This document shows positions 3,496-32,383 of a stretch of 64,000 bases of DNA, in pieces. This DNA comes from Desulfatitalea sp. BRH_c12 (GTDB lineage: Bacteria; Desulfobacterota; Desulfobacteria; Desulfobacterales; Desulfosarcinaceae). The notes below the pieces were generated by a model. The model was not told the origin of the DNA. It made no database searches and was given only the letters and a program-made list of their open reading frames with translations. The translations under genes and the position numbers were made by a program. Every line of letters starts with the position of its first letter. Positions within the stretch are counted from its first letter, which is position 1. The DNA lies in the NCBI GenBank assembly GCA_000961655.1, contig LADR01000047.1:1-64000 (forward strand), read 5' to 3'.

Positions 3496-3508
3496 GCTCC
3501 CCCTCCGG

Positions 3509-4978: not shown

Positions 4979-4981
4979 AAA

Positions 4982-11669: not shown

Positions 11670-14600
11670 GTGATTCTCCTAAACATCAATGGTGGTGCAG
11701 AGCGCTATACGCTGTTCGATAAGGAAACGATGATCTTAAGAACTTTTCATAACATACAAGAGGACGAACTAAGAGACGCTGATCAGCAGTCTATTCTGGT
11801 CAGCCTGGGATGGTCAAGAAGTACCACATGGGAGAACCTGCTGCGGTCAAAGCGTGTACTGATGATCTCAGAAGCCGGGGCGGGCAAAACATATGAGTGT
11901 CGTAAACAGGCTCAACGATTGCGGGATGCAGGGGGACCTGCATTCTTCATTGAGTTGGTAGCTTTGGGATCAACGGATCTTCGGAGCATGCTCGATGATG
12001 AGGAGGAAGCTCTTCTGGATGCATGGCTTTCATCGCAATCGGGCGTGGCGACGTTCTTTCTCGACTCCATCGACGAGCTCAAATTGAGTTTGGGGTCGTT
12101 CGAGTTGGCCCTCAAGCGCTTGAAGAAGGGCATTTGTGGCCAACTCGGCCGAGCCCGGATCGTCATAACAACGCGGCCGATCACGTTCGACCAGCAGCTT
12201 GTTCGCCGTCTGCTTCCTATTCCTCTAACGCCTTCGACGGAGCCGAGTGAAAAAACCTTCGCTAAGATCGCTATGCTTGGTCGCCAGAACCGGAAAGCCG
12301 GCCACAAGGACGAAGAAGCTGCTGCCTATTGGCGAACGGTCGCGCTGATGCCGTTATCGGACGCACAGATTGTCGAATTTGTTCAGGCTCAAGGTATCGA
12401 GGATCCTGCGGCGTTATTGGACGACCTGAAGAAACGGAACGCACAGGAGTTTGCGCGGCGCCCGCAGGACTTAATAGAGCTCTGCGCGGACTGGCGAGAA
12501 CATAAGCGTATCCGAACTCATCGCGATCAAGTAGCGGCAAATGTGCGCATCAAGCTGCAGCCACGTGAAGACAGGCCTGAACCTGCTGAGCTGTCGGTCG
12601 ATAAGGCCATTGAGGGGGCCAGCCGACTAGCGCTCGCGATGCTCGTTACCCGCCGTATGACAATTCGACACAGCGCAGCTTCTGACGCCATTGAAGAGGA
12701 GGCCGCCCTCGATCCAGCGATCATATTGTCGGATTGGAACCCGAACGAGCGAAAAGCTTTACTTGAACGGCCGCTGTTCGGGTTTGCCTCTTATGGTCGC
12801 GTGCGCTTTCATCACCGTTCTGTGGCTGAATATCTTGCTGCACAACGTCTTCGGGCACTTCGCGAGCGCGGCATGCCTTTCCGCGCGCTTAAACGACTGT
12901 TGTTAGCAGAGACCAAAGGCAGGACAATTGTCCGCCCTTCCAAACGGCAGGTGGCCGGCTGGTTGGCGCTCACGGATGACGGAATATTCGAGATACTGCG
13001 AGACAATGAGCCAGCCGTTCTTCTCGACCAGGGGGACCCTGAATCACTGACCCAAATGCAGCGCAACCAAGCGCTTCGAGCGTATGTTGAGCGCTACGGT
13101 GAAGGCGGTTGGCGTGGACTGAGCGTTCCTCATATCCAGATCCACCGTTTCGCTTCGCCGGAATTGGCCTGCGAAGTCAATCGGCTCTGGGGTAAGGGTA
13201 TTGAAAACCCCGATGTTCGGCAGACTGTTCTCTATCTCATTGAGTCAGGAGGGATCAGCGATTGTGCCAACATTGCGCATGATGCCGCCTGTGATCCAAA
13301 AACGTCTGGAATAGAGCGGGTTATCGCTCTCGACGCGCTGGTAGCGCTCAAAGATCTAAGGCTCAAGGATATCGCGTGCGCAGTGGCCGATGATGTTGAT
13401 CTGTGGCCAGACGAAATTGCGTGGGGAGCCATCTTGAGGATGTTCCCACGTGACCTTTCTGTTGAGCAGCTCTGTCAGACTTTGGGTAGGGTGAAGGAGA
13501 AAAAGCGTAGTGCCGGTGACCTGAGTTGGCAATTGTCACGTCTGATCGAGAATGCTGAACTCGATACGCCCAGCTTGGAGGCGCTTCGGGACGGACTCGT
13601 CGGCCTAGCTTCTGATGGGCTTCGCTGGCGGCAGGAATGGCCACACATTGTCAGTAACCGTCCACATCTGAGCAGTGTGTTGGCAGCAACTTGTGCGCGT
13701 GGGCTTGACGTGAGCAAGAACGATGTATGGTTTCACGCCAGTGTCCTTGCCCTGCGTCTTTACAATCACGAATATAGCAACGAAGAAACGCATAAGGCGC
13801 TTCAAGAGCGACTAACTGGCCTTAATGCCGAGGAGAATGCCCGCCTCTTCTGGGTGGAGGATTCCTTAGTGCAATCCCTCCATATAATCGCCGATCCATG
13901 GAAGCGCTTGGCGGAAGTAACGTTACATGACGGCCCCATTGAGCTTAATGTTGATCGTGATCTGAGGTGGATAAAAGAAGCTCTCGGCGAAACGGTTCGC
14001 GACGTTAATGAGCGGGCCATGCTCTTGGAGGCGGCGATACGCCTTCCACCTGACCGCGAGCATTGTCGAGATCACGTGTCAGGACTGAAGCCGCTCGTCG
14101 GTGATCAGCCAATCCTCCTTGCCGCAATTGATGAAAGACTAAAGCTTCCAAAACACGACAAGGAACTAAAATACTGGGAAAAAAAAGAAGCTGAACGGAA
14201 GAAACAAAAAGATCGGCGGGACGCGAAGAACCGGGAGAGCTGGATACAGTTTTGGCATAAAGTCGCGGAGCAGCCCGAGAATGCCTTTTCGTCTGAGCAC
14301 AGCTGGACAACTGCGTGGAATCTCTGGAAAGCAATGAGCCACGATGGTGAAGATAGCCGAGCATCAGGGTGGAACCGTCGATTTATTGAAGAGCATTTTG
14401 GGAAAGAGACGGCGGATCGGCTGCGGCACACCCTGATGAGTATCTGGCGCAAAGATAGTCCAACCTTTGCGAGTGAAAGACCAAAAGGAGAGCGCGGCAC
14501 CTATCTCGTCCGTTGGCAACTCGGGTTGGCAGCGATCTACGCCGAGGCCGAAGATCCTAAATGGGCTACCAAAATTAGTGAAGACGAAGCGAAGATTGCG

Positions 14601-16010
14601 TCGCGCTACGCCCCCATCGAACTCAATGGGCTGCCTATCTGGATGGAGAGCGTCGTCGCAGCCCACTCCAATGCAGTGGACGCAACACTTGGAAAAGAAC
14701 TGAGTTGGGAGTTGCAGCAGGTTGCCGGCGCACACGGCCATTCGATGCTGCTGCAAAGTATCAGCTACGTTCCAAGCCTAATCGCCAGAGTATTTCTTCC
14801 TCGTCTCCGGGCTTGGTTTGATGCGGCCGGAGATCGTATCGAGGACGCAAGCAATCTTGCCGGCACAGCCGAACGCCTCCGGCAAGTGATCGACGTGATG
14901 CTAAAACATGGCGACGAAGCTGTGCGTGGGCACTTGCGCGCCCTCGTACGTCAGCGTCTCAAAGATGACCTACCAGATGAACTCCTTTTTGTTTGGCTGC
15001 AGACGCTAATGCGGATCGATCCCGCGTTCGGCGTAGCTGCACTTGAGGACCAGCTAAGGAAGGTCGAGCCAGGGGAGCGTAGCGAAGCAGTGACGCGGTT
15101 CAGTGTTCTCTTCGGTGATCGCCACGATGCGATTAATCTTAGGGATGGGGCATTCACGCCGACTTTGCTCCTGCGACTTCTTCGTCTCGCGTACCTTCAT
15201 ATTCGACCTGACGACGATGCCGAGCGCGCACGAAACGAGATCGTGAACGTGCTGTTCAATGCGGAAGGTGAAGAAGGCTGGGCAGCGAAGCTGGAAATGG
15301 CCGAGGATCCTCTTTGCGCACACTTCAAGGATCGCATTCTCGCTGTTGCCGAGGAGCATTGGGCTCAGGAAATCGATTCAGTTGCATTCGACGAAGCACA
15401 AGCCATTGCGCTCGATAAAACAGGTGAAGCACCTGCCTCCACCAATGAGATGATTTTCGCTATAATGAATGATCGTCTGGCTGACCTTGATGACCTTTTA
15501 CTACGCGACTCATCGCCAAGAGAAGCTTGGGCAGGTATTGCTGACGAGAAGGTTATGCGCCGCGAGATCGCGCGGGAACTGAACCACGCGGCGAAGGGCC
15601 TTTACAAGGTGGACCAAGAGGCCGTTACTGCTGACGAGAAGGAGACGGATATCCGTCTGCGTTCCGTCCTGTCCGATAACGAAGCGGTGATTGAACTTAA
15701 GCTCGCTGATGTCCGGTCAGCTCGTGACTTGAGTGACACGATATATGATCAACTAGTCAAGAAGTATATGGCGGCCGAGAATAGCAGGTCAGGGTGCTTG
15801 CTCATAACGCTGGCGAAAGATAGGCATTGGAAACATCCAGAAAGTGGACAGCTTGTCGGATTAACCGAGTTGGAATCGCTGCTTCGCGACGAAGCGAAAC
15901 GCGTTGAGAATGCTATGGGTGGCTCCGTTGCTTTATCTGTGCACATTCTGGATCTACGCCCGCGGCTGCCCAAGGAGAAAGTACGAGGAACAGGTGCCGT
16001 GAGCATCTAA
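11670..16010 (+). CDS. STAND/NACHT-type NTPase with C-terminal PD-(D/E)xK nuclease-like domain (Avs-like)
   Basis: 1446 residues. P-loop SEAGAGKT at 67-74, Walker B TFFLDSIDEL at 128-137, and an Arg-containing sensor RIVITTRP at 163-170 define the NACHT NTPase. RFHHRSVAEYLAA at 379-391 is the typical element closing the winged-helix part of NACHT proteins. About 850 helical residues follow, resembling a repeat-type sensor. The last ~130 residues contain ETDIRLR and EAVIELKLAD (about 1325-1347), which fit the D and ExK half-sites of a PD-(D/E)xK nuclease. STAND proteins of this kind act in phage sensing, usually with the effector at the N-terminus; here it is at the C-terminus. The start is GTG 11670; ATG 11730, preceded by AAGGA, is an attractive alternative. 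Antiphage function is inferred. Confidence 0.75.
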   Translation: MILLNINGGAERYTLFDKETMILRTFHNIQEDELRDADQQSILVSLGWSRSTTWENLLRSKRVLMISEAGAGKTYECRKQAQRLRDAGGPAFFIELVALGSTDLRSMLDDEEEALLDAWLSSQSGVATFFLDSIDELKLSLGSFELALKRLKKGICGQLGRARIVITTRPITFDQQLVRRLLPIPLTPSTEPSEKTFAKIAMLGRQNRKAGHKDEEAAAYWRTVALMPLSDAQIVEFVQAQGIEDPAALLDDLKKRNAQEFARRPQDLIELCADWREHKRIRTHRDQVAANVRIKLQPREDRPEPAELSVDKAIEGASRLALAMLVTRRMTIRHSAASDAIEEEAALDPAIILSDWNPNERKALLERPLFGFASYGRVRFHHRSVAEYLAAQRLRALRERGMPFRALKRLLLAETKGRTIVRPSKRQVAGWLALTDDGIFEILRDNEPAVLLDQGDPESLTQMQRNQALRAYVERYGEGGWRGLSVPHIQIHRFASPELACEVNRLWGKGIENPDVRQTVLYLIESGGISDCANIAHDAACDPKTSGIERVIALDALVALKDLRLKDIACAVADDVDLWPDEIAWGAILRMFPRDLSVEQLCQTLGRVKEKKRSAGDLSWQLSRLIENAELDTPSLEALRDGLVGLASDGLRWRQEWPHIVSNRPHLSSVLAATCARGLDVSKNDVWFHASVLALRLYNHEYSNEETHKALQERLTGLNAEENARLFWVEDSLVQSLHIIADPWKRLAEVTLHDGPIELNVDRDLRWIKEALGETVRDVNERAMLLEAAIRLPPDREHCRDHVSGLKPLVGDQPILLAAIDERLKLPKHDKELKYWEKKEAERKKQKDRRDAKNRESWIQFWHKVAEQPENAFSSEHSWTTAWNLWKAMSHDGEDSRASGWNRRFIEEHFGKETADRLRHTLMSIWRKDSPTFASERPKGERGTYLVRWQLGLAAIYAEAEDPKWATKISEDEAKIASRYAPIELNGLPIWMESVVAAHSNAVDATLGKELSWELQQVAGAHGHSMLLQSISYVPSLIARVFLPRLRAWFDAAGDRIEDASNLAGTAERLRQVIDVMLKHGDEAVRGHLRALVRQRLKDDLPDELLFVWLQTLMRIDPAFGVAALEDQLRKVEPGERSEAVTRFSVLFGDRHDAINLRDGAFTPTLLLRLLRLAYLHIRPDDDAERARNEIVNVLFNAEGEEGWAAKLEMAEDPLCAHFKDRILAVAEEHWAQEIDSVAFDEAQAIALDKTGEAPASTNEMIFAIMNDRLADLDDLLLRDSSPREAWAGIADEKVMRREIARELNHAAKGLYKVDQEAVTADEKETDIRLRSVLSDNEAVIELKLADVRSARDLSDTIYDQLVKKYMAAENSRSGCLLITLAKDRHWKHPESGQLVGLTELESLLRDEAKRVENAMGGSVALSVHILDLRPRLPKEKVRGTGAVSI

Positions 16011-16125: not shown

Positions 16126-16590
16126 TCAGTTCGCCAAGCCCAGACTCGGAACGCCGAGCATAATTTGCTTTTTTGGCAAAGCTTTGGTTGTAACTGCTTG
16201 CTGGACGATCCGGAAGAATCGTTTGCCAACTGAAGCGGTCGTGCGGCGATTAAACCGAAAGACGTATTCGTCCAAATAGCGCTGAAGGTACTTTTTCTCA
16301 AAACGCCCTTGAAAGGTTCCGATCATCACCCGCTTAAATAAAGAGATCACCAGATGCGCACCAGACAATACACTTTCTTTCTCGGGAGCGTTGGACCGTA
16401 CGTTTTTTCGATGGATGTAACCCTCAGAGCCGAGCTCATTGTAGCTTTTCCACCCATCGGTGGTAACAACGCTGCCTTGACTGATATTGCAGCATACGAA
16501 AGGAACCAGTTGGCCCGATGAACAACCATCTATCAACTGCAATCGGATGCGGCCCAGTTTGTGCTCCTTGCGCTCCACTGCAATGGCGAC
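16126..16590 (-). mobile_element. Truncated IS1595-type transposase remnant
   Basis: The minus-strand frame encodes only the C-terminal half of an ISXO2-like DDE transposase: VAIAVERKEHKLGRIRLQ, then the TTDGWKSYNEL block carrying the second catalytic Asp, GAHLVISLFKRVMIGTFQGR, and YLDEYVFRFNRR near the third catalytic acid. The N-terminal zinc-ribbon and first-Asp half is missing; upstream of about 16590 the sequence switches abruptly to an exchanger-like fragment. No clear inverted repeats remain. It is a dead element that marks a rearrangement. Confidence 0.75.
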
Positions 16591-16599
16591 CGCACACTT

Positions 16600-17040
16600 A
16601 TGTTCAGCTCCGGGACCTCATTTGCCGCCAGCGTGCTCGCCGCCAATATAGAATCGAGAGCGATATCGTGTTCACCCTTCCTGGCTGCAATGATTGATGA
16701 AGCCAGTTCCGGCAGCGAGGTGCCGACCGCGACGATGATCAGGTCGCGGACCCCGAACCCATGCGCGATCTCCACCGCACCCCAGACCAAAATGCGGGAA
16801 CTGACAATCAAAAGCGCCAGCCGACCACCAGCCAGAAGACCGCACGGCGGATCGGCATGGCGCGGACATCCAGCTCCTGCTCCATCTCGCTTCCCAGCGC
16901 ATCCTCTTTCTTCCGTAGTAGCCCCGCCAGATGGTCCAGCCATCAGACCGCCGAATACGGCCAGCAACACGATGGCATCGAGGCGGGTAATCTCGCCATC
17001 CCAGAGTTGCCATGGAGGTATCAGCAACAGATCATGCTCA
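16600..17040 (-). pseudogene. Fragment of a sodium/calcium-exchanger-type membrane protein
   Basis: In the minus strand a stretch around 16640-16800 reads SSRILVWGAVEIAHGFGVRD then LIIVAVGTSLPELASSIIAA, which carries the alpha-repeat signature of NCX-type antiporters (GTSLPE). Before it, DGEITRLDAIVLLAVFGG also fits the family, but the piece between is out of frame. Both ends are cut, by the IS1595 remnant on one side and by the end of the NERD-helicase gene on the other. Not functional. Confidence 0.65.
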
Positions 17041-18583
17041 ACAGCGCGCGTGCCCTGCTCATCCCAACATAGTGAAGCGAACGTAGGGGCTCGCTATGCC
17101 CAGGTCTTGGCATATCGACAAGAACAACTACCTCGCTCTCAAGCCCTTTGAAATCCCCAATCTGTGCAAAGCCAATGGAATGACGATTTATGTTACGGGG
17201 TGAAGCATCGTCCAGAACGGAGATTGAACCTCGTAAATTCTCGGAAAGAGAAGACGTCCAGGACTGTACAAATGGTAAAGGCGAAAGTACGACGATGTCT
17301 CCCAGGCTGAATCTCTCGACATCCACTAGGTCGTGTAGCTCTTTCTCCAGGGCTTGGATGGCACTGTCTGCGTCCGCGACACAAATTTCACGTACCGCAG
17401 GGCCATCGCCAACTCCTGAATTACCCACATCAGCGTCCAAATCACCTTGTATCCGTTGCAGGATCGGCAGTGAGTTCCGGCAATTCGTCTTTAGCGGGAT
17501 TCGTACCGGGCAAATACTTTCCAGATACTCATAGGCATCGGGCACATAGGAGCCGCATAGGCCGGATTGATTGTTGGCATCGTGAAAAAAGCACCAACGG
17601 CCTTCGCTTATGCCACCATGTAAACATCTATCCAGTTGGGCCAGCACATACATGTTCAATATGTCCTGACCTTCATCGACGATCAATGCATCGAATCCTT
17701 CAATGCTGGCACGCTTAGCGGCGACATGAAGGGACTCCGCCAGGCTGACGATCAGCCCGGGCACGGCGTTCCGTTCCAGAAAACGTTTTAGCCATGGTGA
17801 ATGGCAGGCCAGCGCGGTTTTCATTCCTGATGCGCTCCAGCGCTTCGCCAGTTCAAGCGCCAGCATTGTTTTCCCTGTCCCAGCACCTCCAGAACATATT
17901 ACCCGCGGATTGGCTTCGACGACATCGATCAACCTCAGCTGATCCTCTGTCAGGCGAGCAATGCGCATTTCAACCTCATGGGCAGAAACATGCAATGGCA
18001 CAACAGCCTCGAAATCTGGTCGCAAGTGTTGCTGCAATACCTTCAATTGCGAAGGGGTTGCGGCACTCTTGCGAGGATCCTTCGCACTCCAGTACCTAAT
18101 AAATCGCTCCAGCCACTTTTCGAACTGTCTGAAGTCCCGACCGTCCGCAAGAACAGCGCGATCCCACTCCGCGCTATCGGGAAGTCGGTCGACATCCGGC
18201 ATGACTACACCGTAACCGACCACAAATACATTGGAGAGAGAAGCGGGAAGCTTTCCCCGCAAACCATGTAGCGCCCCCTCCGCTTGTTTGAACGGTGACT
18301 CACGCAATCGTTCGGTTTCACCATATCGGTTCGTAGTTTCCCAGATGCCATCATGGCAGGATACTCCGCCGCCTTTGACCTCCAGCACGAAAAGGCCTTC
18401 CGGCCCGCATATAACAAAGTCGATTTCTCCAAACCGCTTGTACTCATGCCGCGGGAGGTTGAGTGAGTGCATGGCAAACCAACCGTTCTGGTCCGGCCTG
18501 GAAAATGCCGAGCGCAGCTGGTCAAACATGCGTATTTCCGCATTACTGCTGGTGACCAGGGGTTGGCTGGGAATCATCCGCAT
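17021..18583 (-). CDS. NERD nuclease-like domain fused to an SF1 helicase
   Basis: 520 residues from ATG 18583, overlapping the upstream gene by 10 bases. Residues 45-75 hold the NERD signature FGEIDFVICG then LFVLEVKGG, i.e. the E-x-D and ExK half-sites of a PD-(D/E)xK fold. The rest is a UvrD-like SF1 motor: Walker A GGAGTGKT at 232-239, Walker B ALIVDEGQD near 305, the NCR block of motif IV, FKGLESEVVVLVD as motif V, and YVGMSRAR as motif VI. The protein ends only about ten residues after motif VI, and exchanger debris begins at once, so the natural C-terminus may be cut off. It is the last gene of the drm-like operon. Likely role: DNA-cleaving or DNA-translocating component of that defence system (inference). 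Confidence 0.8.
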   Translation of the reverse strand: MRMIPSQPLVTSSNAEIRMFDQLRSAFSRPDQNGWFAMHSLNLPRHEYKRFGEIDFVICGPEGLFVLEVKGGGVSCHDGIWETTNRYGETERLRESPFKQAEGALHGLRGKLPASLSNVFVVGYGVVMPDVDRLPDSAEWDRAVLADGRDFRQFEKWLERFIRYWSAKDPRKSAATPSQLKVLQQHLRPDFEAVVPLHVSAHEVEMRIARLTEDQLRLIDVVEANPRVICSGGAGTGKTMLALELAKRWSASGMKTALACHSPWLKRFLERNAVPGLIVSLAESLHVAAKRASIEGFDALIVDEGQDILNMYVLAQLDRCLHGGISEGRWCFFHDANNQSGLCGSYVPDAYEYLESICPVRIPLKTNCRNSLPILQRIQGDLDADVGNSGVGDGPAVREICVADADSAIQALEKELHDLVDVERFSLGDIVVLSPLPFVQSWTSSLSENLRGSISVLDDASPRNINRHSIGFAQIGDFKGLESEVVVLVDMPRPGHSEPLRSLHYVGMSRARALLSMICC

Positions 18584-20202
18584 GATGAACCGTTTCCGTT
18601 TGCCTTTTCTTCGATTTCTTGCAAGCTTCCAAGTTTCTTGCGCACTTCGGATTCGATCTGGGGAGCTATCGGCGGCCATTGTCCCAAACGATGCAGAAAT
18701 TTGACCTCATCCACTTCTTCCTTAACAGTCGTTACCCTACCCGGCAACACTACCTGCAAGCCTTTTCGTTCAAAGCTTTCAGGTAAATTACCCTCCGCCA
18801 AAGTGATGCGTGTCTGAATGCAATCGTTCCAATTGCATTTGCTCGCGAGTTCTACGGCTACGTCCTTCTTCATGCTGTTCCACTCACCGCTTGGCGATGT
18901 AAAAATTTCTCGCAAGGATTTCGGACGTGGCGGCGCACTCATGGCAAGGTTTTCACCTTGTTTACGGTGCTCAGCGTCTACCATCCGAAAAGCCACGTAG
19001 GCAGACATATCCGGATCGCGCAGCTCCTTAGGCAACTGCAGCCAGCTATCGCGTACACCGAACAGGATTCCAGCAAGAATGTACTCGGCATCGTTCAATA
19101 ACGGATGTGAAAATTCCAGCAGGTCCGTGCAATGCTCGCGCAGGCAGAACAATAGTAAAGGTCTCGATAAAGACCCCTTGTGCCGCTCAAGCAGTTCAGT
19201 GATTGTTCCACCACCGAGGCCTAATAAACCTCGCATGTCCGCGATCAATCGTTCCAAACGTGGCCGAAATTCCATTTCCCGTAGCAGGTCAAGTTGATTC
19301 TCTAAATACGCAAGTGCCACATCGATGGGTGTTTGCGGGCGTTCCTGCGTCTGCGCAACGACCAGCGATTGGATAACGCCCCAGAAGAGCCGGGCACGGG
19401 TATCTGCTTGCCCGGATATCTCACCCCCAACCATCCAGTTAGGAAGCTCAGCCAGTATGGGGTCGCTTTGGACTATGTCACTATCTTTACCACGTGCGGC
19501 TCCAGTTACTAACCGAAAGGCCGCAAGTCCCAGATCGCTGCGGTTAGCAGTGTGGTGCAGCATCGCAAGCACACCGCCAAGTGCCTGTCCAAAAGCCGGA
19601 AAATTGTCATTGCCATCCTCAAACAGCTGCTTTTGTGGCTGCACTGCTGGCCACGCTACCTCCGTGTCTGCGGAAAACAGCGATTCAGCAATCTCAACCC
19701 GATGAGAGGACAAATCGACGTTCGAGACATCATTGGCGGCACTTTCGAATGCTTGCCTGTCCTCGGGTGTGAAAAAGTTAACGCTCAATAGCAAGGTTGG
19801 TGGTAATGGCGCACGGACGAGAATAGCAATTTCGTCTTTGCATTTTCTCGCGGCTGGTGAGGCGACGTCTCGCATACGTCCATCCCGCGACAGCATCCGA
19901 ACTGGGCCGGAAAGATCACTCAAATCGAAGGACGCGATGCAGGGCAACAAATGTTTACGTTCACTGGTAGCGTGTTTCAAAGCATCAGCTGGAATATTGA
20001 CCTTGTCACGGAATAAGGGAATCCAGCCCGGATAGACGCTCAATGGATCAGAATAGTGCTTACCTCGAAAACCCGCGGGGCCCATCACCATACCGGCAGC
20101 CAGCATGTAAAGCATGTTTTGATGGTTGGTTACCAGGTGCCATATGCGCGCCGGTTTTCGTCGACTTCGTGGCTTCTTTGGAGTACCTATTTTCGTGTTC
20201 AT
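18574..20202 (-). CDS. Unrecognised protein of the drm-like operon
   Basis: 542 residues; I recognise no family. The basic N-terminus (TPKKPRSRRKPARIWHLVTN) is followed by NMLYMLAAGMVMGPAGFRGK and a WIPLFRD motif. A strand-rich first third leads into a mostly helical remainder. No P-loop, nuclease triad, membrane segment or zinc pattern is evident. It starts 3 bases after the stop of the SF1 ATPase gene and overlaps the NERD-helicase start, so the three are translated together. It is the least-known member of the system and may be the specificity or sensor subunit; that is only inferred from elimination. Confidence 0.75.
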   Translation of the reverse strand: MNTKIGTPKKPRSRRKPARIWHLVTNHQNMLYMLAAGMVMGPAGFRGKHYSDPLSVYPGWIPLFRDKVNIPADALKHATSERKHLLPCIASFDLSDLSGPVRMLSRDGRMRDVASPAARKCKDEIAILVRAPLPPTLLLSVNFFTPEDRQAFESAANDVSNVDLSSHRVEIAESLFSADTEVAWPAVQPQKQLFEDGNDNFPAFGQALGGVLAMLHHTANRSDLGLAAFRLVTGAARGKDSDIVQSDPILAELPNWMVGGEISGQADTRARLFWGVIQSLVVAQTQERPQTPIDVALAYLENQLDLLREMEFRPRLERLIADMRGLLGLGGGTITELLERHKGSLSRPLLLFCLREHCTDLLEFSHPLLNDAEYILAGILFGVRDSWLQLPKELRDPDMSAYVAFRMVDAEHRKQGENLAMSAPPRPKSLREIFTSPSGEWNSMKKDVAVELASKCNWNDCIQTRITLAEGNLPESFERKGLQVVLPGRVTTVKEEVDEVKFLHRLGQWPPIAPQIESEVRKKLGSLQEIEEKANGNGSSCG

Positions 20203-20205
20203 GAC

Positions 20206-21399
20206 CTACTTCCTAACAAGAATAGAGGGATCGGTGGGCAATAATCCATCCACGACGGGACAAATATTGCCAGTACGGAGCAGCATGAGCTGTTCTCTGG
20301 CACGCGCCACCATTACATAAAAACGTGCCTTGAGCGCATAAGGATCGCGTTTGGGTTGATGTTGGTCGATATCAGGCAAGATGACGGTATCAAACTCCAG
20401 GCCTTTGCAGGACTGGGCATTAATGATCATGATGCCGCCCTGACCGAAGTCCGGTAATTCCCGCTGGCCAGAAACAAAGGTCTGGATCGGCGGTTTGTCA
20501 TTGTCCATCTTTGGATTGGCACGACGAAGCGCGTCATTGAATTTCGTCCGCACTTTATTGTCTGGAGTAATGATTCCAATTAGCTTGCGTGGATTACGGT
20601 CGCTCAACTGGAGGATATTGTCTGCAATCGAAGCCAGTGTTGCTGTGTTTGCCGTACCATAAGTCCATAACTCCGGCGTCGCAGCAGCAGGTATGAGATC
20701 GGGCAGGTCCGGCCTTGGACTGGCCGGGTCAGCTGGGTAAAAGTGCTGGGCAAGCAGCGCTATAGGACGCGTGTTCCGGTAGTTGGTTTTCAGTTCCAGC
20801 GTGTCGCCGGGTTCAATTGCTAACGTGTTTTCGATGTCTTGGCGTGAGCTACACTTGTCGGGGTGAATCTGCTGGTTTTGGTCGGCCGCCACGTAGAAAT
20901 TCTCGAAGCCCAGTTGGGTCAGCGTTCGATAAAAGGCTGGTGGCATATCCTGCCCCTCATCGATAACGATAAACTTATCGCTTTGATCTGGAACATTATC
21001 CAGAGATTGAACTTGGAGTTCGATGGCATTCCAATCTATTGGGCGATATCCTCCCGGATAGTCTGGTGCAAGCATAGGAATATCAGCTGAAAGACGTCTT
21101 TTAAAGTGCCGGCGAAACCAGCTATCCCAAGTCATCGCTGCGAAAGGCTGATCCCTACCGAATAGGTGGCGATTTGAATGATGTAACAATTGATTGTATA
21201 CGAGCGTCCCGTAGGTTCTGTTTGTTTCCTTAAGCCGACGCGCACGGAGAAGAGCCACCACTGACTTACCAGTTCCGGGGCCACCGATAATCAGGTGTTG
21301 CCCCTCCAACGCCAATGCCAGCGCCTCATCCTGATCCTTATTAAGTTCATGAATTCCCGGAAGTGTGAACTGGCGTGTGCGATCAATAGGCATAGTCAA
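20206..21399 (-). CDS. UvrD-like SF1 helicase/ATPase of the drm-like operon
   Basis: 397 residues, compact. All SF1A motifs are visible: Walker A GGPGTGKS at 39-46, Walker B IVIDEGQD, motif III VAADQNQQI, motif IV NYRNTRPI, motif V NAQSCKGLEFD, and motif VI FYVMVARAREQL. It lacks the large 1B/2B insertions of true UvrD/Rep (over 650 residues), so it may be a switch ATPase instead of a processive helicase. The start overlaps drmB by 4 bases (ATGA-type coupling). It has clear motor similarity to the helicase part of the NERD protein two genes on. Confidence 0.85.
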   Translation of the reverse strand: MTMPIDRTRQFTLPGIHELNKDQDEALALALEGQHLIIGGPGTGKSVVALLRARRLKETNRTYGTLVYNQLLHHSNRHLFGRDQPFAAMTWDSWFRRHFKRRLSADIPMLAPDYPGGYRPIDWNAIELQVQSLDNVPDQSDKFIVIDEGQDMPPAFYRTLTQLGFENFYVAADQNQQIHPDKCSSRQDIENTLAIEPGDTLELKTNYRNTRPIALLAQHFYPADPASPRPDLPDLIPAAATPELWTYGTANTATLASIADNILQLSDRNPRKLIGIITPDNKVRTKFNDALRRANPKMDNDKPPIQTFVSGQRELPDFGQGGIMIINAQSCKGLEFDTVILPDIDQHQPKRDPYALKARFYVMVARAREQLMLLRTGNICPVVDGLLPTDPSILVRK

Positions 21400-23219
21400 G
21401 TTACTCCAAAGAATGAAGGCAGCCCGTTGGCGGCATCGTCCTTGACGAAGCCGCGGTCCAGCAAAGTATTGCCATATTCGCAGGCAGGCTCGGGTACCAG
21501 CGCACAGGCATGGCAGGCAGCGCGATTCAGCAAGCCCGGTCCTTGACCTTCATGCTCGCTGCAAACTGGGTCAAGCGAACACCAGCGTGAATGCTCCAGT
21601 GCTCGAATCAGGATGCTTAGAAAGCGCCGGGGTTCACTAAGTTCAGCCAGGCCACCCAGTGAACCAGCGATGTCGGGAACAGCGACATGGATGAGGATGC
21701 CGGCCATGGGCTCCGGAGCGTTGGCGCAATAGAGTCGCTCAATCAACGACGCCGTGGGATAACCACCCTCGGACTCGATTTGTCGCATCAGCAGGTGTGA
21801 CAACGTATGCAATAACATGAAGCGCGTTGTCACCGGATTGGGGTCATTGCGACCGGATTGGGCAAATCGGGGAAGAAGTCGATTCAGTCGCGAAACAACT
21901 GCCGGTGTTTGCTCCCACTCCTTGAGCCGGTCCTCATTGAGCGCGAGGAAGATGCCCTCTCCGTACAACTCAATGGCCGGCAACCAATCGGATTTCCCTA
22001 CGATGTCCGGTGGTACTATTCCCTCACCTCCCAGGCGGGTAAACCCCTTGAATACTTTCACCGCCTTGAGGCGATCCACGCGGACAAGGTGACAGACGCC
22101 GTGGATAATTTTCTGTTCATTAGTATTCAGGTCGACCGCCATTCCCAGTTCACGCCACTCATCACTTCTGTTGCGAGTCACCAGGTCTTCGTCCTCGCGC
22201 TGGTCGGGCAGCACCTCCAGGAATGCCTTAAACTCGCTTTCCCGTAATTGCCCAGGTGTAAGATTCTCACCATACAAGGGATAGCCGCGGGCAAGATCAG
22301 CCAATGCGGTTTCGATATCGTTGGGCTTACAGCGATACTCCGTCGCCAGCATCCGTATGATGCCTTTCCTCGCCAATGACGTTCGTGCAGTGTCTATGCG
22401 ACTACGATCACCGGAATTGCGGTACAAGCGATCCACGACGGTTCCCTTGCGCACACGGGATTCAGGTGGAATCACCAGAACGGATTCAGCGACTGGCAGG
22501 TAAACCCGCGTATCATTGATCACCAGCACCTGCGCGAGGTTTTTATCTCCTTGTTCCGCGGCCTCTATTGGTGGAACCAGGTCGTCTTTGGTCCATGGCT
22601 GCATCCGGCCCTGACCAAAGCCCACTCGTTCATCACCACGAAACCGGGTTTCAGCACGGCAGGCGCCGCACCGTAAAATACGCTCTTCATAGCCGCGTTC
22701 AATCAACCGTAATTGATCTTGCACTTTGCAGTTGCGCTGTGCAGCTTCACGCGCGTCCTTGTGCGAGAGAAAATGCCACGGCACATCGGCAAGATACCCT
22801 GAAGGATGCGCAAGCACCCAGGTCACCTGTTCCAGCTCAGAGCGTCGCCTGCAGTCTTGATGATTGCAACGGGGTGCGGAATCAGGCTGAACGTTCCGCC
22901 ACGGCAAACGATACATGGCGCCACAGGCCGGGCAGCGCATCCAAGAGGGGAATCGCGTCGCCGGCACACAGGTACCATCGACCTGTCCATTCGTTAATTC
23001 TTTCGCTACAGGCGGCTCGCGCAGTTGCTCCTCGATGCCCAGCGCGGCACGCACGCGCTCCACATACGGAATCAGCTTGCCGGCGGAGATGCCCTGGCGA
23101 TCAATCCATTGGCGGGTGTCCTGAACGACCACCAGCCAATTCGCCCCTCGCACGATGGCTCCGACGCCGCTATTGCCGAGCAAGTGTGACAGGCGTATCG
23201 GAATCAGTTCACTGGTCAT
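21396..23219 (-). CDS. drmB: DrmB-like DUF1998 protein
   Basis: 607 residues. N-terminal zinc-ribbon-type Cys pairs (CPACGAMYRL, CNHQDC, and later CGACRA) lead to a C-terminal DUF1998 module: LLHTLSHLLMRQIESEGGYP, then the Cys cluster CSLDPVCSEHEGQG, CHACALVPEPACEYGN and a final LLDRGFV. This is the architecture of DrmB, the DUF1998 partner of the DrmA helicase in DISARM. The gene begins 3 bases after the drmA stop. In DISARM, DrmA and DrmB form the core complex that engages incoming DNA; that is family knowledge. I assign DrmB on domain type and adjacency. Confidence 0.8.
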   Translation of the reverse strand: MTSELIPIRLSHLLGNSGVGAIVRGANWLVVVQDTRQWIDRQGISAGKLIPYVERVRAALGIEEQLREPPVAKELTNGQVDGTCVPATRFPSWMRCPACGAMYRLPWRNVQPDSAPRCNHQDCRRRSELEQVTWVLAHPSGYLADVPWHFLSHKDAREAAQRNCKVQDQLRLIERGYEERILRCGACRAETRFRGDERVGFGQGRMQPWTKDDLVPPIEAAEQGDKNLAQVLVINDTRVYLPVAESVLVIPPESRVRKGTVVDRLYRNSGDRSRIDTARTSLARKGIIRMLATEYRCKPNDIETALADLARGYPLYGENLTPGQLRESEFKAFLEVLPDQREDEDLVTRNRSDEWRELGMAVDLNTNEQKIIHGVCHLVRVDRLKAVKVFKGFTRLGGEGIVPPDIVGKSDWLPAIELYGEGIFLALNEDRLKEWEQTPAVVSRLNRLLPRFAQSGRNDPNPVTTRFMLLHTLSHLLMRQIESEGGYPTASLIERLYCANAPEPMAGILIHVAVPDIAGSLGGLAELSEPRRFLSILIRALEHSRWCSLDPVCSEHEGQGPGLLNRAACHACALVPEPACEYGNTLLDRGFVKDDAANGLPSFFGVT

Positions 23220-23222
23220 AGT

Positions 23223-26200
23223 TCATAGCGCCTTGAGCAGAGCGGTGTTTTCCACGTTGCGCAGGGATTGCAAGGTTGGCCACAGGCCAAGAATCCGATC
23301 ATCATGGTTGTACATCAGGCGATCGCACCTATTGTCCTTTTCGTGGACTTGATACTCCAATTGTCTTCGAGCTAACCGGCAGCGTTCGACCTCGTTCCGC
23401 CAATCAGCAATTAGGGCGTCGATATGCCCGCTCACCTCATCGACCTGATCGGTTGCTGACAATACGCAACGTCGTTTGAGTTGTTCAACGGCTTTGGCTA
23501 CTTGTAAATCCTTTGGATCAAAGTTGGCGGCAGCACTGTTATTCAACAATCCAACCCCACCGTGTCTCAACACGATGACCAGCGTCGCCGACAGGGCGCG
23601 CAGGCGGGCTTGGTAGGTATAAGGCGTGACGCTGGTAGGCTCGACGAAACGGTAGAATGCTTCATGGTAAGGGCGGAAGCTCTCGTAGTGTGACAGGCTG
23701 CGTGCCTGTTCACGGTAGTAGTTCGCGAACACCACGCCGGGCGCCTCGCTGCGCCCGACGCGGCTGCTGGCCTGAATATATTCCGCCGTAGTCAACGGCT
23801 GGCCGTTGATAATCATCAGTGCCAATCGAGCCACATCAAGCCCGACCGAGATCATATTAGTGGCCAGCACGGCATCCAGGCAGCCATCCTCTTCGCGCGT
23901 TTTGCTCAACCGGGTGAAAACTTCGGCATTCTGCACCGCCGTCTGCAAGCTGGTAAGTTGTGCAATGCTCGGCGCCGAGCGCTCTTGTTTCTTCGCCTTT
24001 TCGTTTTCCTGGGCCCGCGCGTCCGTTGTGCCAAACAACAACCTCATGAAATCACGCACATCGCTCGCAAAAGCCGTATGGCTGTTGCCTACCCCCTTAA
24101 GGCTGCCGTGATATACCACCTGCGTCCACCAGGCATCTAATAGCTCCCGCTCGTGCTGATCACCCTCGAACAGCACGTGCGGGGCTAACAGCAATGCCGC
24201 AGACAGCGGCGCCAGACATCGCTGCCGGTTCAGCATCGGCGCCAGATAGCCTACGTAGATTCGGCCCGGGCGTTGCTCTAAAGGCACGGTACGAGCGAAA
24301 TAGGCATCGTCGCAGCTCAATCCCGGCGGTGGAAACACGGCGACTTCGCGTCCATACAGTCGTTTCACCTGTTGATCTGCCATACGGATGGTGGCGGTCG
24401 ACGCAACGTACTTTGGATACACGCCACGCAATTGAAGTACGGTGTCGATAGCGGCTTCGTACAGACCAGCCACCGAACCCAGCGCGCTGGCAATCAAGTG
24501 CAATTCATCCTGGATGATGAGTTCCGGCGGTCGATGCTGAGTGCCTCCCAAGAATGCATTGGCACGCTCTTCCCAGGCCAGCCTCGCGAGTTTATCCACC
24601 GTGGCGACCAACATGGTAGGTGGCTCAGCATACAAGGCTTCATCTACGATGTTACAAGGCAGTAGGCCATCCGAGGACGCGCCAAAGCCGCACTCCAGAT
24701 TCCGGCAGAGGAAGTAAAAATGGTTCGTGGTGCTGTCGTAGTTACGGCCAGCCGAGAACTCCTGTCCGCACCAGGGGCAGTGGTGGAGCACCAGTTCGGG
24801 CTTCTTGTTGGCAGAAATTGCCTTCTTTACAAGTTCAGCCGCTTTCTGAAAGGAATTGGGACTGGCTGCCTCTCCCACCCACATGCCTATGGTAATCGGC
24901 TCGGAACCGAGATCATCGCGTTGACGCCGGATCAGCTCCAACGCACAGATTAGGCGGGTAGCGCGTATGAATTGATCACGGGTCAACAGACGCAGGGTAT
25001 AACGCATTAGGATAGCCATCCCGCCCCCGGTATCAGAGTGGCGAAGACGCCTCAGCGTAATCTGGAATGCGATCAGGCCAAGATAAGCTTCAGTCTTACC
25101 GCCGCCCGTTGGAAACCAGATCAGGTCAACTGTATCGCGGAAATCGCTGTCCTCATTCGCCGAAGACTCCAGCACGGTCAACAGGAAGGCCAACTGAAAC
25201 GGACGCCAACGATATGCATCATCGGCGCGGGCCTTGCCCTTAAGATGATCATGCTGGCGCATCTGATCCAACATGGCGCGATTGGCCAAGGCAAAGGCAA
25301 GCCTGATTTGTGCACTGTCGCCCAGCAGACGCAGGCTTACACGCATGCGCGAGACGGCAGTGTTCATGCGCTCGACCATGCGGCTTGCGGCTGTGCGATC
25401 GTCGGCTGAAAGGCCCGGGATATTGCCCTGTTGGCCGGCAACCCAGCTCGCGTATCCGCTGATGAAATCGTCCAACTCAGGCAGAAGGGTTGCGTGAGCG
25501 TTGTCGATGTCAGACAGTCGTGCCAGCGACAGTACAGGCTCGCCCCCCGATCCAGTATCCGCCGTCATCTGCGGCACTTCCACCGCCGGCATCGTTTCGG
25601 AGCGCAGTTCGACGACCTTCCCTTCCTTTACCTTCCAGTTGGCGGCGCAACCATGCCCGATGGCGTAGATGTGCCGGTGGGCGTACTGGAGTTCGATTTC
25701 CTGTTCTTCCTGATCTAACAGGCTTCGATCGACGCGGGGGTAGGCACCAACATCGCCGGCGTCGATCACGCAGCGGAGACTGGCCTCGAACAGGGTCTTT
25801 TCCGCGCGTTCGTAGACATAGTCCCTGCCTGCCGCGCTGTTTGCAAGCTCCTGTGCATTGCAAAGAGAAACCGTGACGATCCAACCATCGGCGAAGCGAC
25901 GCCACTGTACATCTGCGCGTGCCCTATTTACCAGTTTTGAAAAGCTCTGACGCTGGTCTTTTCCAGGGCAACTGATGCTCTCTAATTCCTCGTACTCTCC
26001 TATCCTGGAAACCAGTTCCTTGCGTGTCCAGTCGTTTTTGTATCGTCCTCGTTCACCTCGATCTGTAAGTTCATACCTGACGCCACGGCACAACAGCTGG
26101 AATCGGATATCCTCACCCTTAATAAAGAACGAGAAACCCAGTGACGATGGTGGAATGTAACGTCGTACTACGGCAGGCTCGGCTAATCTTTCACCCGCAA

Positions 26201-26414
26201 CCTCAGTAGTAGACTCAGCTTCATCGACGTCTTCAGCGGCAGGATCGATACCTTCGCCCCATTGGGATGTGGGGTAAAGCGCACCGCAGGGGAAACGTTC
26301 CGTAGGCAGCACACCACGTAGGACCGGGCCATCAGGCGCCGACTCAGGTGGACCGATCAGTTGCTGGCGTACCCAGTCGATGAGTCTCTTTCGTGGTTCA
26401 GTGAACATTGTCAT
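23223..26414 (-). CDS. drmA: DrmA-like SF2 helicase
   Basis: 1063 residues. After a ~400-residue N-terminal region come Walker A FPTGGGKT at 434-441, an inserted zinc ribbon (CPWCGQEF and CRNLECGFG), a DEAD-box-type motif II written QDELH, motif III STAT (VASTATIRM), and motif VI QASSRVGR. The Lys-Thr-Glu after the P-loop and the DELH box are typical of DISARM DrmA. It is the first gene of a five-gene minus-strand operon. Its start lies about 35 bases after the truncated grpE-like copy. There is no methyltransferase or PLD nuclease gene in the cluster, unlike described DISARM classes. Confidence 0.85.
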   Translation of the reverse strand: MTMFTEPRKRLIDWVRQQLIGPPESAPDGPVLRGVLPTERFPCGALYPTSQWGEGIDPAAEDVDEAESTTEVAGERLAEPAVVRRYIPPSSLGFSFFIKGEDIRFQLLCRGVRYELTDRGERGRYKNDWTRKELVSRIGEYEELESISCPGKDQRQSFSKLVNRARADVQWRRFADGWIVTVSLCNAQELANSAAGRDYVYERAEKTLFEASLRCVIDAGDVGAYPRVDRSLLDQEEQEIELQYAHRHIYAIGHGCAANWKVKEGKVVELRSETMPAVEVPQMTADTGSGGEPVLSLARLSDIDNAHATLLPELDDFISGYASWVAGQQGNIPGLSADDRTAASRMVERMNTAVSRMRVSLRLLGDSAQIRLAFALANRAMLDQMRQHDHLKGKARADDAYRWRPFQLAFLLTVLESSANEDSDFRDTVDLIWFPTGGGKTEAYLGLIAFQITLRRLRHSDTGGGMAILMRYTLRLLTRDQFIRATRLICALELIRRQRDDLGSEPITIGMWVGEAASPNSFQKAAELVKKAISANKKPELVLHHCPWCGQEFSAGRNYDSTTNHFYFLCRNLECGFGASSDGLLPCNIVDEALYAEPPTMLVATVDKLARLAWEERANAFLGGTQHRPPELIIQDELHLIASALGSVAGLYEAAIDTVLQLRGVYPKYVASTATIRMADQQVKRLYGREVAVFPPPGLSCDDAYFARTVPLEQRPGRIYVGYLAPMLNRQRCLAPLSAALLLAPHVLFEGDQHERELLDAWWTQVVYHGSLKGVGNSHTAFASDVRDFMRLLFGTTDARAQENEKAKKQERSAPSIAQLTSLQTAVQNAEVFTRLSKTREEDGCLDAVLATNMISVGLDVARLALMIINGQPLTTAEYIQASSRVGRSEAPGVVFANYYREQARSLSHYESFRPYHEAFYRFVEPTSVTPYTYQARLRALSATLVIVLRHGGVGLLNNSAAANFDPKDLQVAKAVEQLKRRCVLSATDQVDEVSGHIDALIADWRNEVERCRLARRQLEYQVHEKDNRCDRLMYNHDDRILGLWPTLQSLRNVENTALLKAL

Positions 26415-26686: not shown

Positions 26687-29664
<2,978 letters not shown>

Positions 29665-29668
<4 letters not shown>

Positions 29669-32250
29669 TTCTGTCCGCCTCCTGCCAATGAGGAAAGTTT
29701 TCTACTCGTCAATCTTGCCAGAATGTCATCACTGCCCAGTTTCGCTTCGGCCAACTTGCGTGCAGCAAGCTCCCTCCATTCAATAACTCCAGGCGACCGG
29801 AAAGAGTCCCAGAGCGCTCGCATTGTTGTCATGCACTCTTCTGAAAACTTTTTGAAATCTTCAACGCTGATGTAAAAAACATCTCCCGTGTGAGGTTCAG
29901 CAGCGAAATGTAATTTGTCCGACATTGAGCAGAATACGACCGAGAAACTTACTCCCGGGTGTTCTGCTGCGAGGGTGTCCGGATGGGCCTTGGCCTGAAG
30001 TGTTTTCTCTTTTGAGACGACAGGATTCTCTCCGGTTGCCGTGTAATCCTCAAAAACAACGCCCTGTCGCCCAAAGATCCACCACGGGTCCGGATCACCG
30101 GATCGCTCCGTGTTCCCCGATTCAAAGCCCATCAGGCGACCGAGCTTTGCCTGAGCTTCTTCAAACGGCTTCGATTCCGTGCTTGAAAGCCCTTCCCGGA
30201 TGGCCTGGAAATATTTTTCGATTTTTACGCTGCCGGACTTTCCAAACCGTTCAAGGACTCCTTCTATACGCTCGATGCGCTCTCCATAAATGACATCGAC
30301 AGGTACTTCCTGTGCCTGGATTGAGAGCAGCTTTTGAATCTGTTTGAGCCACGGCAACGTACTGGCGCATGAAAAGGCTGCCGAAAAATGTTCTTGAGCT
30401 ACCTGTGCTTGATCCGCCTGGTAGGCGGCTGAGCCAGCAAGGTAATTCCAAAGAGCAGAATATCCCTTCAGGTCATGCCCACCGGCAAGACTGGCAAGCA
30501 CATCTTTTGCTGAAGAGAGGGCACTGTCAAAATCTCCGGACCAAAGAGCATCGTGAAATTTCACTTCATGAACAACCGAGTTCCCGAGCGGACTTGCCGA
30601 TGGTATCGGTGATTGAGACAGTTCGTCTCTCGTTTCCAATATATGGTTATCGGCCGAGTTCCAGTCTGGCCCGTGGGCAATGAATATGTCGATGTTATCC
30701 CCCAGCTCAGACGGATTATCGACTTTTGATTGATCGACACCAAAATTGACTTCGGCCTGAAGTTCCGGATGCAGTGTTTCTCTCTTTTCCGGCATATGGA
30801 AATACTGATGCACCTTGTCGCCGATGATAACCACGAGCGCGTAGTCGGTTGATGAGCGTGTGCATCTTCCCACAGCCTGAGTGATCCTGGTGCGAATGCG
30901 AACCTGGAAAAGAACAGAGGCACCCAGTCGGCTGATGATGAAGCGCTCCTGAAGATTTGTGGATTCCGGAAGGCCGTAGATAATCAGGTATCTGCATTCG
31001 TCTCCGATCAGATCGATCCCGTCATACCTGTTCGCAAGAACGGCAATGGCGGAACCGGCCAGAGTGAAAGACTTCTTCGACGCCTCCAATTGGGCGGCGT
31101 CAAAGAGTGAATGACTCTGCGTCGTCGGGAGTGACCGAATGGCTTCTTTGACTTTGTCGGCGTCGCGGTTACTTGGGGTGAGAACAAGTGCTCTGTCAAA
31201 TTTCGTAACCCAGGAAACCGCGAGATCCAACGAAGCCGCTTCATCCCACATCCGCATGGGGAATACGAAAAAACGTCTGCCGATTCCCTGCTTATCCCAA
31301 CCCTCTGGAGCAGGTATCCGTTCGATTTTCTTACGGCCGAAAATTCTTTCCAGATCCCCACCTTCACCGAGAGTTGCAGACATGTAAATGCGCTGCTGCG
31401 CATTCTGAAAGGGCACGAAACTTTTTGTGGGGGCGATAAGAGGGCGAATGAGAATTGAATTACTGGTGTAATAGAGATGGCAGGCGTGAAGGTGATCTCT
31501 GATCATGCGCCATCGATAACCGTATTCCTCCGGGCTTTCATCGTCTCTGGAGGCACTATCAATCGCGGCTGTCAGAGCTGTCCTGCACTTGAGTAAATAT
31601 GGCGTCGGAATCTTGTTCACGAATGACGTATCAAGCGATCCCTCATTGCCCTGATCGTAACGGAGCTGGTCATTTTCCGTGGTGTAAGGCGCGATTATCT
31701 GCCAGATCGCATCGAAGGTAGTTTCATCCTGATAGCGCCGGACCTCCAACGACCAGAAACTCGACACGTAATTCTCAGCGGCATGCGCATCGTCAAAAAT
31801 GAGTGTATGAACGTCGCTGAAAAATGGGTTCGTGTTGAACAGAGCGCTATAGGTGGCAACACCTATTGATTCGCAATTGTTGAAAGCGGTCTTATCGGCC
31901 TCCGGGTACTGGTGTTTGGAACCTGAGAAATCAAGAGCGTTAATTCCGTATTTTTCTTTGGCCTGTTCAACCACCTGATGGACGAGCTGTTTGGTAGGAC
32001 AGAGCAGTACACATCTCTCCCGTTTCGTTCTTCTGCGCCATTCTGCGATCAGAAGACCAACCAGGGTTTTGCCGCTGCCTGTGGGCAATTCAAGCGCGAT
32101 ATCACGATTGTCGACATGGTCCATGTAGTTGCGGAGCATGTCGGCCTGCTGCGCAAGAAGGCCTTCTACGGTACGGTCCCGCAGGTCACGGAACAACGAT
32201 TCAGGATCTTTGATGGATACCGAAGATTTCTGGGGAATTTTAAATGCCAT
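29665..32250 (-). CDS. XPD/DinG-like SF2 helicase inside the type I operon
   Basis: 861 residues from ATG 32250, chosen because of a strong AAGGAGG seven bases upstream. Walker A ELPTGSGKT near 75, motif II written DDAHAAEN where DEAH is usual, motif III MSATL, and QAVGRCTRSSTDYALV as motif VI place it with Rad3/XPD/DinG-type or related DEAH helicases. There is no 4Fe-4S Cys cluster between motifs I and II. The C-terminal ~250 residues are not recognised. It sits between hsdS and hsdR, coupled to hsdR by a 4-base overlap. An N-terminal hsdR stub precedes it. It may be an accessory defence factor added to the operon (inference). Confidence 0.8.
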
Positions 32251-32251
32251 G

Positions 32252-32383
32252 GAGTAATCCTCCTTGGATTCTATTGCATGCGCCGCCGTAACTGGCGAGA
32301 TCTTCGGCAACCATGTTCGAAGTCACGCCGCCGCAGAGCGTGTCGAGAACCATCTGTGCGACAGTGTTTTCTTCGTTAAACAT
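32252..32383 (-). pseudogene. N-terminal stub of an older hsdR gene
   Basis: ATG 32383 overlaps the hsdS stop by 8 bases, the usual S-R coupling. The product begins FNEENTVAQMVLDTL, matching FNEENTVEQLVLDTL at the start of the intact HsdR, and continues to about AEDLASYGG before homology ends at the helicase ribosome binding site. Base-level divergence from the intact gene shows it is not a recent copy of it. It marks where the helicase cassette and a different hsdR were inserted. Confidence 0.75.

Follow-up and report, generated by a model that had tools for sequence, protein, structure and literature searches.

We describe here a five-gene cluster, drmA-drmB-SF1-U-NERD-SF1, on the minus strand of a 64,000-nucleotide stretch of DNA from Desulfatitalea sp. 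BRH_c12 (contig LADR01000047.1, positions 1 to 64,000; hereafter the window). SF1 denotes helicase superfamily 1 and U the product of the fourth gene. The cluster is quite likely a defence module of the DISARM (defence island system associated with restriction-modification) family that has no methylase of its own. Our fuller reading, to which we give about an even chance (roughly 0.5), is that of a self-contained restriction module in which DrmA-DrmB would sense DNA architecture, U would be a pseudo-DarT adaptor and the NERD domain would be the nuclease. DISARM was named for its link to restriction-modification (RM), and how the host is spared, by a methyl mark or by DNA structure, is at issue. 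A naturally occurring DrmAB system that lacks a methylase gene of its own makes this question directly testable: if the cluster works in a methylase-free host, the methyl mark is not needed.

A preliminary description of the window, made from its sequence alone, had placed five adjacent genes at 17021-26414, and all five open reading frames (ORFs) were confirmed there on the minus strand, nearly without gaps (Table 1). DrmA and DrmB match the corresponding PADLOC models (1.6e-202 and 6e-51) and the Serratia DrmAB structure 7s9v (E 1.3e-126 and 3.5e-52), and DrmB scores 330.1 bits against its NCBIfam model, above the cut-off of 240. The NERD domain was identified by Pfam (PF08378, 4.4e-11) in the fifth ORF, joined to an SF1 helicase. 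As in DISARM, drmB is a separate gene 3' of drmA, after a gap of 3 nucleotides (nt); the next junctions, 5' to 3', are a 4-nt overlap (a 2-nt gap if the conserved ATG is used), a 3-nt gap and an overlap. The tight spacing described earlier holds with one correction: judged by conservation, NERD-SF1 starts at 18583 (residue M33 of its ORF, 'MRMIP', 8/8 aligned sequences), so that the overlap with U is 10 nt and not 106, and no gap or overlap between the five genes exceeds 10 nt. Among the five genes, no DNA methyltransferase (DrmMI or DrmMII) was found with PADLOC, Pfam or NCBIfam, no phospholipase D (PLD) model indicative of the DrmC nuclease with PADLOC or Pfam, and no PADLOC match named DrmD or DrmE, the adequacy of the library's DrmE model being unchecked. 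The absence of these components, as first described, is therefore correct inside the cluster; methyltransferases do lie close by, with a type I RM system upstream. DrmC is reported to be dispensable and often missing (PMC9142583; this and the other PMC articles are cited for extracts of their text).

The gene set recurs in other genomes. A pattern scan of the genome_contigs collection (84,980 species) with U gave 12 loci, and the order drmA-drmB-SF1-U-NERD is kept in all of them as far as the contigs extend. All five genes are present in eight (L001, L002, L004-L007, L009, L010), in some of them truncated by the contig end, whereas L003, L008, L011 and L012 run off the contig, with U fragmentary in the last two. 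Identity to the U of the window ranges from 44 to 89% (10 aligned). We take the loci to be gammaproteobacterial, the placement of some groups being assumed, apart from L008 and L012, which come from metagenome-assembled genomes (MAGs) of Planctomycetota. Within the class of the window, 389 genomes were searched with DrmA; 29 matched, including the window's own and nine only at E ~1e-4, and the neighbourhoods of the other 19 were inspected. The compact SF1 gene follows drmB in 10 of these 19; the next gene is visible in nine and is U in 9/9 (hidden Markov model E 2e-105 to 1.6e-7), and NERD-SF1 comes after U in eight of the nine, the exception being L111. Across a phylum sample of 395 genomes U was found in the window's own only, and the system is therefore rare. 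For 18 further genomes with DrmB, 17 neighbourhoods were compared by BLAST (G322 left out), and none was of the SF1-U type. The U profile gave 24 pattern matches in viral contigs, none of them a relative, and a DrmA search of phages gave one partial match (27.9%).

On plasmids, tblastn with U gave no match, and a homologue surfaced only via DrmA, in Deinococcus gobiensis. Its plasmid P4 carries NERD-SF1 (NERD by Pfam), drmA, drmB, SF1 and a gene for a 576-residue protein, in this order. This protein is a U homologue, as seen by BLASTP (E 1.4e-10 with the U of L115, 2.7e-11 with that of L116) and by hhalign, with P 4.6e-4 against 11 close U sequences and P 1.3e-14 against 20 (448 columns, score 114.7; six shuffles at most 18.7), the columns of the latter being taken from an alignment that had contained the Deinococcus protein. 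Photobacterium plasmids carry drmA-drmB-SF1 and a fourth gene of 467 or 483 codons, whose products compare with U at P 0.0027 (score 33.1; four shuffles at most 15.3) and with the 11 close U sequences alone at P 0.09; at the level of sequence profiles, this is suggestive of a relationship. A Streptomyces plasmid has drmA-drmB-SF1 only. Directly upstream of these genes it encodes a Sigma-70-like protein of 1273 amino acids (aa) (L041:6123-9944). The three genes that accompany drmAB in the window, whose recurrence the preliminary description had made decisive, thus do recur with it, in 12/12 loci as far as their contigs extend, in 8/9 further loci and, rearranged, in Deinococcus.

DrmA phylogeny gives the same grouping. 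From 57 DrmA rows of at least 900 aa, seven near-copies were dropped and quick, unrooted trees were inferred, with operon labels assigned by us. With the 50 remaining rows, the 20 drmA-drmB-SF1 rows fall on one side of a branch with a support of 60 (SH-like approximate likelihood ratio test, SH-aLRT); after removal of the long branches L064 and L131, the 48-row tree separates the same 20 rows with a support of 100. Without plasmid rows, the 16 remaining drmA-drmB-SF1 rows have a support of 100 in both trees. The other side of the branch holds class 1 DISARM, loci with NERD upstream and UvrD-drmAB loci.

Residues expected to matter are conserved. The compact SF1 protein keeps K45, D147, E148, D151, R208 and R366 in 26/26 sequences, and E335 and R368 in 25/26. 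The NERD residues E85, D87, E100, K102 and Q132 (ORF numbering) are invariant in 18/18, and the helicase motifs checked in NERD-SF1, like those of the compact protein named by general SF1 usage, are kept in the 17 rows that extend into this part, save for N402 (one row) and R544 (two rows). Directly before its PSSLG motif, DrmA has an acidic linker at the place of the Serratia trigger loop (176-232), and it conserves the counterpart of the base-contacting Val of Serratia DrmA (V1296); both linker and Val are retained in a clade without a linked methylase. The Serratia loop keeps DrmAB off double-stranded DNA and 3' overhangs while allowing single-stranded DNA (ssDNA) and 5' overhangs, and its authors propose that it spares self DNA (PMC9142583). 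These data bear on whether the cluster is a DISARM in decay, its methylase lost and its neighbours acquired by chance. Its rarity and the length of its DrmA (1063 aa, as compared with 1325 aa in Serratia) would agree with decay, but key residues are kept down to ~35-40% DrmA identity, the same order is found in many genomes and a complete, rearranged set exists in Deinococcus. Decay is already disfavoured and seems to us very improbable indeed.

NERD-SF1 proteins also stand beside drmAB in other DISARM lineages and so are not peculiar to the five-gene cluster. They directly precede drmA in L062, L117 and L118-L121, where the operon contains or adjoins a Dcm-type gene, and in L132, where such a gene lies 3.1 kb beyond drmB. 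In L055-L057 they also precede drmA and no Dcm-type gene was seen, two of the contigs ending near drmB. They follow drmB in L045, L046 and L048. Judging by these gene neighbourhoods, NERD-SF1 may be a nuclease common in DISARM that has so far gone without a name. A further recurrent DISARM arrangement is seen in L055 and L118-L121, where two proteins of unknown type (356-615 and 517-543 aa) come before NERD-SF1, drmA and drmB, with a C5 methylase in L118-L121. The Azospirillum drmAB locus carries a gene for a DarT1-like ADP-ribosyltransferase (L046:15069-15671) 113 nt after NERD-SF1.

The preliminary description had called U unrecognised. This remains true of families, neither Pfam and NCBIfam (to E 0.01) nor PADLOC (to 0.001) giving a match to U, and PDB sequences a single, chance-level one (E 0.83); it no longer applies to the fold of the N-terminal domain. 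AlphaFold2 models were built from 11 sequences only, taken from the window and genome_contigs (U and 10 homologues). The model of whole U is modest (mean predicted local distance difference test, pLDDT, 71.9), and DarT chains fill the first eight places among its Foldseek matches in PDB, six with E values of 2.8e-5 to 6.6e-4. Residues 1-185 alone were modelled with pLDDT 83.4 and a predicted template modelling (TM) score of 0.80. Their first eight matches are again DarT chains (E 2.2e-6 to 1.7e-3, probability 1.00, TM score by query 0.55-0.62); the ninth is tRNA 2'-phosphotransferase (E 2.9e-3), which we take to have the ADP-ribosyltransferase (ART) fold, and the tenth is unrelated (E 0.34). 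DarT depends on a Glu of the ART type; in DarT2 the motif is H-Y-E (PMC11543638). At the DarT His position, all 21 U homologues have L, F, I, M or V (hhalign register), and at the Glu position all 21 have A, G, I, L or S, as aligned by eye with Thermus DarT. With His and Glu missing throughout, U appears to be a transferase that has lost its activity but been retained for binding, and its N-terminal domain is probably, on the strength of these models, a catalytically inactive DarT-like fold.

Among the columns checked, N26, N29, D52, E81 (21/21), F176, G209, G210 and L380 are invariant in U. The first four could belong to a DNA ADP-ribosyltransferase that is active through an unusual set of catalytic residues and marks or poisons phage DNA, making the cluster a DarTG-like system plus a helicase core. 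The predicted fold and the free-standing DarT1-like gene of Azospirillum would suit this possibility, which we nevertheless find highly improbable: the ART-motif His and the catalytic Glu are replaced in every homologue, the DarT family PF14487 has no match in U to E 0.01, and the Azospirillum locus is one case, on another DrmA branch. An ARH3/DraG-like identity of the helical part of U was considered and rejected (Foldseek E 0.02-0.19, TM score at most 0.36, root-mean-square deviation (rmsd) ~9-13, no ARH metal motif by eye). Comparison of U with X520, X437, E and Y683, proteins beside NERD in other DISARM loci, gave nothing clearly above shuffles.

Whole-genome searches for methylases with PF00145, PF02384, PF01555 and PF02086 covered the window's genome and nine carriers of its class; G737, with a 6.5-kb contig, was left out. 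Among the matches listed within 10 kb of the cluster, the window has two HsdM, L109 (genome G399) a type II RM methylase directly upstream of drmA, and L112 (G604) a type I RM system whose HsdM starts 5.7 kb downstream; none of the four families was found within this distance in the other seven of the nine carriers. In seven of the nine (not L107 and L109) the known sequence extends for 10 kb or more to either side, and L112 is the only one of these with a methylase. The condition that would have spoken against the preliminary description, a methyltransferase always nearby, is thus not what the genomes contain. The Deinococcus plasmid has an annotated cytosine methylase 2.7 kb away on the opposite strand. 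A scan of neighbouring ORFs covered 107 of 141 ORFs at 19 loci (34 ORFs of L041-L044 left out) and the best 25 of 131 PADLOC and 25 of 154 Pfam families; since the L109 methylase is absent from its Pfam list, the scan is demonstrably incomplete and the statements above rest on the whole-genome searches. Among the matches listed, MTase_II models fell on one ORF (L109) and the MADS methylase mad2 on three, namely the L109 ORF, a 195-aa ORF in L001 resembling general S-adenosylmethionine (SAM)-dependent methyltransferases, and one further ORF. Because nearby methylases are so inconstant, the cluster appears to need no dedicated, linked one. G468 was considered as an almost methylase-free carrier and rejected, a weak PF02384 match on contig C86 proving to be a full type IIG-like enzyme. 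The locus concerned (L137:518-11436) also encodes a PLD/Snf2 helicase (1080 aa, with a DrmD-like C-terminal part) and two large ORFs, and is possibly another phospholipase D-type antiphage system.

Several observations weigh against a self-contained, architecture-sensing module. The DrmA score against the NCBIfam model for DrmA_S (DISARM_DrmAS), 821.6 bits, is below the cut-off of 950; drmA and drmB are 370 nt apart in L114 and 1360 nt in L116; and NERD-SF1 may be dispensable, since it is absent from L111 and the Streptomyces plasmid series ends after SF1. As for U, besides the missing PF14487 match, the superpositions of residues 1-185 on DarT have an rmsd of 4.6-7.6, the Glu register was set by eye, and hhalign of 21 U with 10 DarT sequences recovers an N-terminal motif weakly (score 26.0, P 0.03; N-terminal domain alone, P 0.019), the controls (10 column shuffles, one reversal, two other families) scoring at most 17.0. 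The remaining points concern methylation: RM systems lie within 6 kb of the cluster in the window, L109 and L112; N6_Mtase and N6_N4 matches occur in all 10 carrier genomes; G468 carries the full-length type IIG-like enzyme (1197 aa, PADLOC 2.1e-271); and the Val that contacts the base in Serratia DrmA, where it is a proposed methylation sensor (PMC9142583), is kept. Such a pattern could arise if the system were still methylation-dependent, with marks provided in trans by host methylases and, in the window, by the type I RM operon that immediately precedes the cluster on its strand and encodes two HsdM. However, the neighbouring methylases differ in type and are inconstant, and C5 methylase has no match in 5/10 carrier genomes (the window's and four of the nine others). 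We consider methylation in trans unlikely, though to be kept in mind.

The type I RM operon consists of two tandem HsdM (54% identical), HsdS, a PDC-S28-type DinG-like helicase between HsdS and HsdR, and HsdR, which ends 272 nt before drmA. On the other side, and facing the cluster, a 1446-aa HyoA-type antiphage NACHT protein is encoded (NF058534, 1525.1 bits, cut-off 1200), with no Pfam or PADLOC match. With these genes on its two sides, the cluster lies within a defence island. This argues against a module for DNA repair or plasmid control that is not primarily anti-phage. YprA/MrfA-type helicases also act in repair. MrfAB pairs a YprA-family helicase with a 3'-5' exonuclease (PMC12458937), and two SF1 motors with a nuclease resemble an end-processing machinery; but separate drmA and drmB genes are consistent only in the DISARM branch (PMC12458937), and occurrence is patchy (one of 395 phylum genomes, Gammaproteobacteria, Planctomycetota MAGs, a Deinococcus plasmid). 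A repair or plasmid-control role thus appears improbable. Just downstream of the cluster lies an IS1595/ISXO2-type transposase fragment. Farther away, a tightly spaced group encodes an Hsp70-like ATPase (831 aa), an AAA ATPase (489 aa) with an IetA/TRIP13-like match and a 556-aa protein without assigned family, and may be another defence operon.

Table 1. Positions of the cluster, its parts and neighbouring genes in the window
Feature	Position	Strand	Description
drmA	23223-26414	-	YprA-family superfamily 2 helicase, 1063 aa
DrmA motifs			Walker A GGGKT at residue 437, DELH 636, TAT 673, SRVGR 884
DrmA residues ~53-85	26160-26258	-	Acidic linker before PPSSLG motif; putative trigger-loop equivalent, by place only
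DrmA V1054	23253-23255	-	In 'SLRNVE'; counterpart of V1296 in 'SMREVE' of Serratia DrmA
drmB	21396-23219	-	DUF1998/MZB protein, 607 aa
Compact SF1 ATPase	20206-21399	-	UvrD/HelD-like, 397 aa; probable conserved start ATG 21393
U (fourth gene)	18574-20202	-	542 aa; conserved partner of drmAB-SF1
U residues 1-185	19648-20202	-	Predicted DarT (ADP-ribosyltransferase) fold without DarT His and Glu
NERD-SF1	17021-18583	-	SF1 helicase with a fused NERD nuclease domain; 520 aa when counted from the conserved start, the ORF itself opening at 18679
Type I RM operon	26687-36842	-	Upstream, same strand as cluster
HyoA-type gene	11670-16010	+	Antiphage NACHT protein
Transposase fragment	16126-16578	-	IS1595/ISXO2 type
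Hsp70-like/AAA ATPase group	1849-7477	-	Three genes

We infer from the above how the module could work. DrmA-DrmB, held off by the acidic, trigger-loop-like linker, would load only where a 5' single strand is accessible, as at incoming ends and in replication or recombination intermediates, so that DNA architecture, rather than a methyl mark, would distinguish self from non-self. U would bind the single strand or end via its DarT-fold domain, no longer capable of ADP-ribosyl transfer, and would couple DrmAB to both SF1 proteins. The compact SF1 ATPase would translocate or remodel, and the NERD domain of NERD-SF1 would degrade the DNA in place of DrmC. Taken further, the cluster might represent a third class of DISARM that dispenses with methylation, in which a dead DarT-fold sensor of ssDNA or ends licenses DrmAB and NERD is the effector; we advance this idea tentatively, as one that could well prove too strong. 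A pseudo-ADP-ribosyltransferase serving as a defence adaptor would, to our knowledge, be a new use of the ART fold. A recurrent NERD-SF1 partner is also a candidate for the nuclease step called unresolved in PMC9142583.

A full-text search of the literature, with subscription papers and supplements largely outside its scope, found no description of the five-gene set. In the extracts cited, NERD is linked to TALON and not to DISARM (PMC12458937), and is listed for Mokosh and Nhi-like systems (PMC10952713). TALON and ARMADA share with the cluster a YprA-like helicase; TALON also has a NERD nuclease and ARMADA II a GajB-like helicase, but the BrxHII-like helicase and PglX-like methylase of ARMADA and the TPR-CSD and TBP proteins of TALON are not in the cluster (PMC12458937). 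Druantia III, likewise a system with a YprA-family helicase, is proposed to act on ssDNA-containing intermediates, recognising architecture and not sequence (PMC13192584); its DruE, however, unites helicase, DUF1998-like module and PLD domains, and its partner is DruH. DarT1 and DarT2 of the DarTG toxin-antitoxin systems resemble residues 1-185 of U in predicted fold, whereas U lacks the catalytic His and Glu, has ~350 further residues and is accompanied by neither DarG nor NADAR within the five-gene set. The C5-methylase DISARM loci (L062, L117, L118-L121) have a homologous NERD-SF1, there directly before drmA, but carry a Dcm-type gene, have neither compact SF1 nor U, and are separated from the cluster in the DrmA tree. 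DISARM class 2 contains DrmE and DrmMII. Class 1 (DrmD, adenine methyltransferase, DrmA, DrmB, DrmC) is similar in its separate, adjacent drmA and drmB and in the DrmA motifs, acidic linker and base-contact Val; in contrast, the cluster is without DrmD, methyltransferase and PLD nuclease, possesses two SF1 proteins and U, and stands on the opposite side of the DrmA tree.

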